34,751 bases of DNA from Lachnospiraceae bacterium (GTDB lineage Bacteria; Bacillota; Clostridia; Lachnospirales; Lachnospiraceae): contig JAQYOA010000220.1 in NCBI GenBank assembly GCA_028727605.1, positions 1 to 34,751 of the forward strand. The letters run 5' to 3'. The position numbers and the translations under genes were made by a program. Shown here in pieces: positions 3,011-10,944 of this stretch (positions within the stretch are counted from its first letter, which is position 1; each line of letters opens with the position of its first letter). The notes below the pieces were generated by a model that saw only the letters and a list, made by a program, of their open reading frames with translations, was not told the origin of the DNA and did no database searches.

Positions 3011-3343
3011 TCCGTCATAAGCTTGATCGTTGTTGTGCAGATTTTAGTGCGGCTGCAGAATGAACCGCCAGAGTGCGTTGTTCATACTGTTTAATATTAT
3101 AAAGTGAGACCTGACATTTCGTCGGGGAACCTCCGGCGGGTGGACGCGCGGAGCGCATACATCCCTTATAATATTGCTTAATACTCTTATCTGTCAGGTG
3201 GCAGAAGGAGAAAGGTCGTGCGAATCACGGCTGGATACACGCATACCTGTATCCCAATTAGGAAAATATTATGGTAATTGTTTGGCAGTGGAAGCACTGC
3301 GCAGACAGGTTACTGAGAAATCAGAAAATGGAGGACAAATTAC
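3011..3343 (+). promoter_or_regulatory. Structured rpmJ-rpsM spacer, candidate ribosomal-protein leader RNA
   Basis: No convincing ORF occupies this gap. It contains several potential stems: AATATTATAA (3093-3102) with TTATAATATT (3166-3175) enclosing a GC-rich hairpin CTCCG...CGGAG (3131-3153); ACCTGACA (about 3109) with TGTCAGGT (about 3192), which would compete with the first; GGATAC/GTATCC (about 3233-3254); and GCAGTG/CACTGC (about 3286-3301) just before rpsM. Competing pairings upstream of a ribosomal-protein operon suggest autoregulation. In E. coli, S4 controls the alpha operon through a leader pseudoknot. No specific known motif was recognised here. Confidence 0.4.
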
Positions 3344-7600: not shown

Positions 7601-8464
7601 ATGTTAGTATCAGCAAAAGAGATGTTGGATAAAGCCAAAGCTGGTCACTATGCTGTTGGACAGTTTAACATCAACAATCTGGAGTGGACAAAATCAATTC
7701 TGCTTACCGCTCAGGAGATGAACTCTCCGGTTATCCTTGGTGTTTCCGAGGGCGCAGGAAAATACATGACAGGATTCAAAACCGTAGCTGCTATGGTAAA
7801 AGCAATGATCGAAGAACTGAACATTACCGTACCGGTTGCTCTGCATCTGGATCATGGAACCTACGAAGGATGCTATAAATGTATCGAGGCAGGATTCTCA
7901 TCCATCATGTTTGACGGATCTCACTATCCGATCGATGAGAATGTAGCAAAGACAAAAGAACTGGTAGCAGTCTGCAGAGAAAAAGGAATTTCTCTTGAGG
8001 CAGAGGTTGGTTCCATCGGCGGCGAAGAAGACGGCGTTGTAGGAATGGGCGAATGTGCAGATCCTAACGAGTGCAAGATGATTGCTGATCTGGGCGTTGA
8101 TATGCTGGCAGCAGGTATCGGCAACATTCATGGAAAATATCCGGCAAACTGGCAGGGACTGAGCTTTGAGACTCTGGATGCTGTACAGCAGCTGACCGGA
8201 GCAATGCCTCTGGTACTTCACGGCGGTACAGGAATTCCGGAAGATATGATCAAGAAAGCGATCGACCTTGGCGTATCCAAGATCAATGTAAATACAGAGT
8301 GCCAGCTGTCCTTTGCAGCAGCAACCCGTAAGTATATTGAAGAAGGAAAAGATCAGCAGGGTAAGGGATATGATCCTCGCAAGCTGTTAGCTCCTGGCGC
8401 AGAAGCAATCAAAGCAACTGTAAGAGAAAAAATTGAACTCTTTGGCTCTGCAAATAAAGCCTGA
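7601..8464 (+). CDS. fba: Class II fructose-1,6-bisphosphate aldolase
   Basis: Cleaves fructose 1,6-bisphosphate to dihydroxyacetone phosphate and glyceraldehyde 3-phosphate in glycolysis. The 287-residue protein is a full-length class IIB-type enzyme. The catalytic base and zinc ligand are in LHLDHG (D84, H85), the other metal ligands in LEAEVG (E135), GNIHG (H177) and LVLHGGTGI (H207). The phosphate-binding loop GGTG and INVNTE strand are intact. Because ketose-bisphosphate aldolases share these motifs, a tagatose-bisphosphate specificity is possible, but a free-standing strongly promoted copy favours the glycolytic role. Confidence 0.95.
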   Translation: MLVSAKEMLDKAKAGHYAVGQFNINNLEWTKSILLTAQEMNSPVILGVSEGAGKYMTGFKTVAAMVKAMIEELNITVPVALHLDHGTYEGCYKCIEAGFSSIMFDGSHYPIDENVAKTKELVAVCREKGISLEAEVGSIGGEEDGVVGMGECADPNECKMIADLGVDMLAAGIGNIHGKYPANWQGLSFETLDAVQQLTGAMPLVLHGGTGIPEDMIKKAIDLGVSKINVNTECQLSFAAATRKYIEEGKDQQGKGYDPRKLLAPGAEAIKATVREKIELFGSANKA

Positions 8465-8471
8465 GTTTTAG

Positions 8472-8519
8472 AAAAAAGTACCGTATCTGTTTAAAGAGAG
8501 GATGCGGTACTTTTTTTTC
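8472..8519 (+). terminator. Intrinsic terminator of fba
   Basis: AAAAAAGTACCGTATC pairs with GATGCGGTACTTTTTT, with one wobble, around a 13-nt loop, and is followed by a long T-run. Confidence 0.92.
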
Positions 8520-8520
8520 T

Positions 8521-8829
8521 TAAAAATAGCCGCTCCGTTCATCGAATCCAATAAATTTTTGCGGCAAAGAAGAGAACTTTTGGCAAAAAGTACGAAATAT
8601 TCGAAACAGGCCAAAAACTGCTTGCCTTTTTGGCTTTTTTGCGTTATCTTATTAGCAGTTGGAAATGAAAATTCCATATGCGTATGTAAAACAAGGGCGT
8701 TCTACAAAAAATGATATGTTTTTTGAGGACCCCTTTTTCTTTTCATGACGGTTTGATTCAGGCGGTGCTGCCTGTATTGCCGGAAAAAGGATCGTACGTA
8801 AATATATTGAACTGAAAGGAAGAAATGAA
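8521..8829 (+). promoter_or_regulatory. glnN leader with alternative hairpins (attenuator-like)
   Basis: The leader contains three related segments: TTTTGGC (8578-8584), GCCAAAAA (8610-8617) and TTTTTGGC (8627-8634), the last followed by TTTTTT. Segments 2 and 3 form a terminator-like hairpin. Segment 1 can pair with segment 2 over 7 bp and would prevent it. Further down are CAAAAAA/TTTTTTG (about 8704-8724) and a 5-bp stem CAGGC/GCCTG with a 6-nt loop (about 8759-8774). No clear promoter upstream of segment 1 was found. A weak alternative promoter (TTGCCT at 8623, 16-bp spacer, TATCTT at 8645) overlaps the terminator-like hairpin, so the attenuator reading is not certain. Confidence 0.45.
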
Positions 8830-10944
8830 ATGGGAGAATATGTAAATGCAGCCGAGATCTTTGGTGAAAACGTATTCAATGACAAAGTCATGCAGGAACG
8901 TCTTCCAAAGAACGTTTACAAAAAACTGAAAAAAATCATCGCAGAGGGCGGAGATCTGGATCTGGCAACTGCAGATGTCATTGCTCATGAGATGAAAGAG
9001 TGGGCAATCGAGAAGGGAGCTACTCATTATACACATTGGTTCCAGCCTCTGACAGGTGTAACTGCTGAAAAACATGATTCCTTTATTACCTCCCCACTGC
9101 CAAGTGGAAAGGTACTGATGAGCTTTTCCGGCAAAGAATTGATCAAAGGTGAGCCGGATGCTTCTTCCTTCCCTTCAGGTGGACTTCGTGCAACCTTCGA
9201 GGCAAGAGGATATACAGCATGGGATTGTACTTCTCCGGCATTTGTTCGTCAGGATGCTGCAGGAGCTACCCTTTGCATTCCTACTGCATTCTGCTCTTAC
9301 ACAGGAGAGGCACTGGATCAGAAGACACCACTGCTTCGTTCCATGGAAGCGATCAATGTTCAGTCTCTCAGACTGTTAAGACTCTTTGGAAATACTACTT
9401 CCAAGAAAGTTACACCATCCGTAGGACCGGAGCAGGAATACTTCCTGGTAGATGCTGAGAAATTCTTACAGAGAAAAGACTTGATTTATACCGGACGTAC
9501 CCTGTTCGGAGCAATGCCTCCGAAAGGACAGGAGATGGATGACCATTATTTTGGAACCATTCGTCAGAGAATTGCCGGATTTATGAAAGATGTCAATATT
9601 GAACTTTGGAAGATGGGTGTTACCGCAAAAACTCAGCACAACGAAGTGGCACCGGCACAGCACGAGCTGGCAACCATCTACTCCGAGGCAAATATTGCTG
9701 TTGATAATAACCAGCTGGTAATGCAGACCTTAAAGAGAGTTGCCTGCCAGCATGGAATGAAGTGCCTGCTTCATGAGAAACCATTTGCAGGTGTAAATGG
9801 TTCCGGAAAACATAATAACTGGTCAATCACAACGGATGACGGAATCAATCTGCTGGAGCCGGGAAAAACTCCTCACGAGAATGTTCAGTTCCTGCTCGTT
9901 TTAAGCTGCATCCTCAAAGCAGTCGATGTACATGCAGATCTTCTTCGTGAATCTGCAGCAGATCCAGGAAACGATCACAGACTGGGAGCAAATGAGGCTC
10001 CGCCGGCTATCATTTCTGTATTCCTTGGCGAACAGCTTGAGGACGTAGTAGATCAGCTGCTGAGCACCGGAAGTGCTACACAGAGCAAAAAGGGTGGTGT
10101 GCTTTCCACAGGTGTTAAGACTCTGCCGGATCTGAACAAGGATGCTACCGATCGTAACAGAACATCACCGTTTGCATTTACCGGAAATAAATTTGAGTTC
10201 CGTATGGTTGGATCCCGTGACTCCGTAGCAAGCCCGAACATTGTACTGAATACAATCGTTGCAGAAGCATTCCGTGATGCCTGTGATGAACTTGAGAAGG
10301 CAGAATGCTTTGAGGAAGCAGTACATGATCTGATCAAGAAGAACCTGAGTGAGCACCAGAGAATTATCTTCAATGGAAACGGATATACTGATGAGTGGGT
10401 AGCGGAAGCAGAGAAGAGAGGTCTTCCGAACATCAAATCCATGGTATATGCAATTCCTGCACTGACTTCCGAGAAAGCAGTAAAACTGTTCGGTGATTTC
10501 GGTGTATTCACCAAGGCAGAACTGGAATCCCGTGCGGAAGTAAAATATGAGAATTATGCAAAGACCATTAACATCGAGGCAAAGACCATGATCGATATGG
10601 CAAGCAAACAGATTGTTCCTGCAGTAATCAAATATGCTACTGGACTGGCCGGATCCATCAACACAATCCTTGCAGCAGGTGTCAGCGAAGTAAGCGTACA
10701 GAAAGAACTGCTTGAAGAGACCAGCAAGCTTCTGAAAGAGACTCAGAATGCTCTGGCAGCCCTGATTGCCATTGAAGACAAAGGCTGTACGATGGAAGAC
10801 GGCGAGGAAAAGGCAAAATATTACTACGAAGAAGTTGCTCCGGCAATGGAAGCACTCCGTACACCGGTAGATAAACTGGAAATGATCGTAGACAAAGAAA
10901 TGTGGCCGATGCCGTCCTATGGCGATCTGATCTTTGAAGTATAA
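8830..10944 (+). CDS. glnN: Glutamine synthetase type III
   Basis: Makes glutamine from glutamate, ammonia and ATP; the main ammonium-assimilation enzyme where present. The 704-residue length is that of GSIII, far longer than GSI or GSII. Characteristic regions: the N-terminal GSIII domain with [12 protein letters not shown] and [36 protein letters not shown] (glutamate/metal site), [13 protein letters not shown], then [18 protein letters not shown] (ATP and metal site), and [21 protein letters not shown]. The C-terminal part is a helical GSIII extension. It is a single-gene unit between terminators with an unusual leader, consistent with nitrogen control at the RNA level, which is inference. 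Confidence 0.97.

Follow-up and report, generated by a model that had tools for sequence, protein, structure and literature searches.

Published target RNAs of ANTAR-domain antiterminators carry tandem hexaloops (PMC3369931, PMC8164766). The ANTAR motif has been defined as two hexaloops separated by a linker of 5-12 nt, both of which are needed for full binding and induction (PMC3369931, Ramesh et al. 2012). From the structure of EutV with RNA, it has been argued that an ANTAR dimer engages only one hexaloop at any moment, that one hexaloop is therefore the minimal binding motif and that single-hexaloop sites may exist (PMC8934654, Walshe et al. 2022); according to the same work, antitermination still requires both hexaloops, and single sites are expected where the time constraint imposed by transcription is absent. 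That ANTAR proteins control nitrogen genes, glutamine synthetase among them, is already known, as is clostridial NitR (PMC3369931, PMC3369936, and the discussion of ammonia assimilation in PMC4676874). That discussion covers the NitR antiterminator of Clostridium acetobutylicum and an ANTAR gene that C. thermocellum carries within its GS-GOGAT cluster.

The locus described here is in a 34,751 nt stretch of a contig of a Lachnospiraceae bacterium [GenBank accession JAQYOA010000220.1, assembly GCA_028727605.1], the whole stretch being referred to as the window. The leader of its glnN gene, at approximately 8657-8738, is very probably an ANTAR-type transcription attenuator, which the ANTAR protein encoded after glnA would override under nitrogen limitation. 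Sequence analysis provides a promoter, a terminator and an overlapping hairpin that both covary, a regulon of related elements, and co-occurrence and linkage with an ANTAR gene. As in known ANTAR target RNAs (EutV of Enterococcus faecalis, NasR and AmiR; PMC3369931), an A1/G4 hexaloop overlaps the 5′ arm of a terminator, nitrogen genes are the targets and an ANTAR protein is encoded in the genome. Unlike the two-hexaloop targets (PMC3369931), most of the related leaders that precede genes other than glnN have one hexaloop, at the predicted 5′-end of the transcript. These match the minimal motif of PMC8934654 but, contrary to its expectation, the single hexaloops overlap terminators. The NitR and C. 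thermocellum cases share with this one an ANTAR-type protein beside glutamine synthetase and a proposed control of ammonia assimilation, whereas the leader RNA, the hexaloop and the type III glutamine synthetase (GSIII) target are described here and not in that discussion (PMC4676874). No description of single-hexaloop ANTAR attenuators at transcript starts, or of this glnN regulon, was found in openly accessible main texts.

The fba-glnN intergenic region

The gene upstream of glnN is fba (positions 7601-8464, forward strand), which predicts a class II fructose-bisphosphate aldolase (Pfam PF01116, E = 1.6e-101) and is followed on the same strand by its own terminator, a symmetric hairpin AAAAAGTACCG...CGGTACTTTTTTTT at 8472-8519. 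The glnN gene (8830-10944, forward strand) predicts a 704 aa protein, and the assignment to GSIII made in a preliminary description of this DNA was confirmed by Pfam PF12437, PF18318 and PF00120. Rfam cis-regulatory families are also structured leaders of bacterial genes, and none matches the glnN leader; a search of 8465-8830 returned no family at the gathering score and nothing relevant at permissive thresholds. Elsewhere in the window, an S4-Clostridia ribosomal protein leader (RF03140, 49.8 bits) is present at 3210-3262 on the forward strand. An inverted repeat, CAGGC-N6-GCCTG (8759-8774), lies between the attenuator terminator described below and the glnN ribosome-binding site.

The preliminary description placed an attenuator at 8578-8640 (forward strand), formed by three segments, the second of which could pair with either of the others. 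The segments are present, with TTTTGGC at 8578-8584, GCCAAAAA at 8610-8617 and TTTTTGGC at 8627-8634 followed by six T residues to 8640, and their complementarity in the window is perfect. However, in an alignment of the seven available genomes of the genus, the G-C pairs that give the two hairpins their specificity are present in only 1 or 2 of the 7, and 73% and 67% of cells are paired, compared with up to 66% and 69% in slid controls. Covariation across these seven leaders gave no support to the alternative pairings. The fold of 8560-8645 is also at chance level (z = -0.73, with 44 of 200 shuffles folding equally well), and a terminator scan gave 1 match where 0.8 were expected. The features conserved in the genus over this region are an A-tract, TTGC(C/G)T, a T-rich 17 nt spacer and a -10 element, which by their sequence are those of a promoter. 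In the window, the -35 element is TTGCCT (8622-8627; TTGC(C/G)T in 7/7 genus genomes) and, at a spacing of 17 nt, the -10 element is TATCTT (8645-8650; TATCTT, TATTTT or TAATCT in the genus), both on the forward strand. The trio overlaps the -35 element and the spacer of this promoter, its supposed terminator arm and T run falling inside the spacer, and transcription of glnN is predicted to start at approximately 8657, downstream of 8640, which would place the trio upstream of the transcript. A start downstream of 8640, here a predicted one, and a lack of covariation are the two outcomes that the preliminary description had named as refuting its trio.

Lacking conserved pairings and lying upstream of the predicted start, the trio fails as a three-segment leader attenuator and, even with its perfect complementarity, is a highly improbable candidate. 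An alternative raised in the same description, that a promoter overlaps the hairpin, is the better reading of these segments given the conserved -35, spacer and -10. The kind of mechanism that had been envisaged, attenuation of glnN by an ANTAR antiterminator, is probably right, but the location was not; as judged from sequence, the attenuator is about 60 nt downstream of the trio, at 8657-8738. It is equally hard to credit that the hairpins in this region are only terminators of fba. Although fba is directly upstream both here and in several relatives, it has its own terminator at 8472-8519, making a second one unnecessary, and a conserved promoter lies in between. The element is also found ahead of unrelated nitrogen genes in other genomic settings, and its conserved 5′ arm is not something a terminator requires.

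Terminator and hexaloop hairpin of the glnN leader

Downstream of the predicted start, relatives share a conserved block, RAAC-AARGGC-GUUC, after which comes a terminator 3′ arm. In the window, the predicted intrinsic terminator (8693-8738, forward strand; AAGGG.GUUCU.CAAAAAA...UUUUUUGAGGACCCCUU and then a U run) was identified from its fold (-21.6 kcal/mol), from covariation and with R1, a covariance model for which glnN leaders were the only input. Scored over 12 pairs in an alignment of 18 glnN leaders, 93.5% of its cells are paired compared with 67% or less in slid controls. Two-sided changes occur at 7 of the 12 pairs, with 26 two-sided cells observed against 7.6 in shuffled alignments, a number reached in 0 of 500 shuffles.

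This terminator overlaps a putative antiterminator hairpin, P2 (8687-8704, forward strand), with the sequence UAAAAC[AAGGGC]GUUCUA. The window's P2 includes one A-C mismatch and has only 3 contiguous pairs, with 2 more beyond the mismatch. Its loop, AAGGGC (8693-8698, forward strand), is a hexaloop of the ANTAR type in which the first base is A and the fourth is G, though the preliminary description had seen no such loops. Bases 8693-8703 are common to P2 and the terminator, the 3′ side of the P2 stem doubling as part of the latter. Both pairings show covariation, and the two predicted structures are mutually exclusive.

Covariation of the P2 stem fell short of significance in the first 18 sequences and reached it only when the larger regulon set was used. 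Among 74 distinct cores, 89% of cells are paired compared with 36-56% in slid controls, and there are 22 two-sided cells against 7.9 ± 2.3 in shuffled alignments (0/2000); as the shuffles ignore relatedness, this figure is to be read as support and not as a probability, and the slid controls agree with it. It is a test separate from R1, because R1 models only the terminator as paired. Loop position 4 is G in all 74 cores and position 1 is A in 62 and G in 12, frequencies that are partly favoured by match selection. In all 84 instances before nitrogen genes, position 1 is a purine (A or G) and position 4 is G.

By default, the RNA would fold into the strong terminator at 8693-8738 and transcription would stop approximately 80 nt downstream of the start. 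When nitrogen is limiting, the ANTAR protein encoded directly after glnA would bind the hexaloop hairpin AAAC[AAGGGC]GUUC. Because this hairpin and the 5′ arm of the terminator share their bases, the bound hairpin would sequester that arm, termination would be blocked and GSIII would be made. We infer the binding, the direction of control and the signal, the latter two from the identity of the targets.

The regulon and the ANTAR gene

In the own genome, R1 detected the glnN leader (8683-8740, E = 4.7e-7) and gave weaker matches at E = 0.12 before the glnA-ANTAR gene pair and at E = 1.7 before an amino-acid ABC transporter. Both weak matches are backed by well-scoring orthologues in relatives, with glnA-ANTAR leaders present in nine family genomes, the own genome among them, and a transporter leader in G003. 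Two tandem attenuator copies precede the transporter in G003 (L102, G003:C127:33560-33742) and one copy is found in the own genome (L097, C42:286-333). Within the genus (L196-L201 and L095), the glnN leader is present in 7/7 genomes and the glnA-ANTAR leader in only 3/7 (G000, G002, G005).

Over all genomes searched, R1 matches precede genes for GSIII (41), type I glutamine synthetase (GSI; 17), GltB1, a separate amidotransferase subunit (8), Amt (6), GltB (5) and SBP (3), with one each before PII, CarA, PurB and a CP-ATPgrasp gene. Target families were checked against Pfam for a sample, and PurB and CP-ATPgrasp were named by eye. The attenuator in G032 (L108, G032:C23:22215-22260) lies before a CP-ATPgrasp-like cluster, which suggests a nitrogen-related function for the cluster. 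In named GTDB genomes (search space 395 kb, both strands), a plus-strand match was found just upstream in 24 of 80 GSIII loci, 23 of them at E ≤ 0.002, and 23/23 plus-strand matches at that threshold are within approximately 210 nt upstream of GSIII. A P2 stem of at least 3 bp occurs in 82 of the 84 matches before nitrogen genes, and in 19 of 36 matches with no recognised nitrogen gene downstream. The latter matches, one of which is in the own genome (C142:1147), were counted as ordinary terminators or given no assignment, about half having no P2 stem. Across the order, the same element precedes gltB, amt, PII, carA and amino-acid transporters, and before glnA-ANTAR it would provide autoregulation.

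The own genome has one ANTAR gene (C165), located directly after glnA, the GSI gene, and a single ANTAR gene in this position is the rule in the family. The predicted protein (PF03861, E = 1e-16) resembles EutV, Rv1626 and NasR. However, unlike the EutV-type two-component regulator, it lacks the phospho-acceptor Asp, with G53 at this position of the receiver and Gly likewise in 23 of 29 aligned sequences. FP replaces the acidic pair, and Response_reg is below the cut-off. When EutV residues taken from PMC8934654 were mapped via a protein alignment, Lys149, Glu160 and Met172 were found to be kept in the family ANTARs, whereas Tyr164, which stacks on G4 in EutV, is replaced by His in 25 of 29. 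The location of a non-phosphorylatable receiver beside GSI suggests the hypothesis that control is exerted by GSI, PII or glutamine and not by a kinase. Only one genus member encodes a further ANTAR protein (L034, G005:C99:26840-26995), and in this one the receiver Asp is intact.

Of 117 genomes from the order, 81 have an ANTAR gene, and 39 of these have an R1 match before a nitrogen gene, compared with 1 of the 36 that have none (Fisher p = 4e-7, calculated over genomes, which are not independent events). Thirty-five leaders adjoin the ANTAR gene or lie a few kb upstream on the same strand, and in ten of these the leader is between ANTAR and GSIII. About half of the ANTAR-bearing genomes have no nitrogen-gene match at E ≤ 0.003; therefore, either R1 misses targets or the element is absent there. 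A leader-like match with a weak hairpin (closing U-G) is also present before GSIII in G042 (L159, G042:C50:3878-3925), and no ANTAR gene was found in that genome.

One hexaloop or two

Promoters scoring 10/12 or better were found for 36 of the 43 leaders that precede genes other than glnN. The -10 element ends 8-18 nt before the hexaloop in 32/43, compared with 0.44 expected from shuffles. In these 32 leaders, the predicted start is in or beside the hairpin's 5′ arm, and a first hexaloop would have no space. Judged by the predicted starts, the element outside glnN thus usually appears to be a lone hexaloop with which the transcript begins. The glnN leaders are longer than the others and often include a 5′ hairpin, usually without an A1/G4 loop. 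In the window, this hairpin (8660-8676, forward strand; UGGAA-N7-UUCCA) occupies the place of the first ANTAR hairpin and has a non-canonical 7 nt loop without G4. It is not significantly more stable than shuffles (z = -0.64), and a mean z of only -0.76 over 32 glnN leaders gives no support to a generally stable structure. A canonical A1/G4 first hexaloop (P1) is absent from the window's own leader and occurs in only 2 of 40 longer leaders, of glnN and other genes (G049 and G119).

These observations bear on the possibility that the glnN leader is a conventional two-hairpin ANTAR target in which 8660-8676 is a divergent P1 acting with P2 as in EutV. Many glnN leaders do carry an upstream hairpin at the P1 position, G049 and G119, both outside the family, have the canonical hexaloop there, and several other leaders keep a 6 nt loop (CAGGCG, GGTAGT, ATAAAA, AACTAA, GACAAA). 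However, the rarity of A1/G4 at P1, the loop and stability of the window's own 5′ hairpin, and the want of space for any P1 in most non-glnN leaders make this arrangement rather unlikely. Less probable still is that the same RNA switch operates with no ANTAR involvement, being read by a different factor or relying on RNA folding alone. It would accommodate the leader-like match in G042 and the His at the G4-stacking position, and ANTAR binding is itself deduced, but it would leave aside both the co-occurrence of leaders with ANTAR genes and the linkage of 35 of them to one, and the A1/G4 loop, the terminator overlap and the nitrogen targets all fit the ANTAR model (PMC3369931). On balance, we favour an order-wide nitrogen regulon of Clostridia under an ANTAR protein with a non-phosphorylatable receiver, acting via single hexaloops at transcript starts and without the recruitment hairpin on which current models depend.

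Structural studies of EutV did not settle whether a single hexaloop can function in ANTAR control, and they attributed the requirement for two to a race with the polymerase; leaders in which the sole hexaloop is transcribed first would directly test that model. The single-hexaloop layout would also explain why searches for two hairpins would miss such targets, and these leaders would supply a mechanism of nitrogen control for Lachnospiraceae and related gut and rumen Clostridia.
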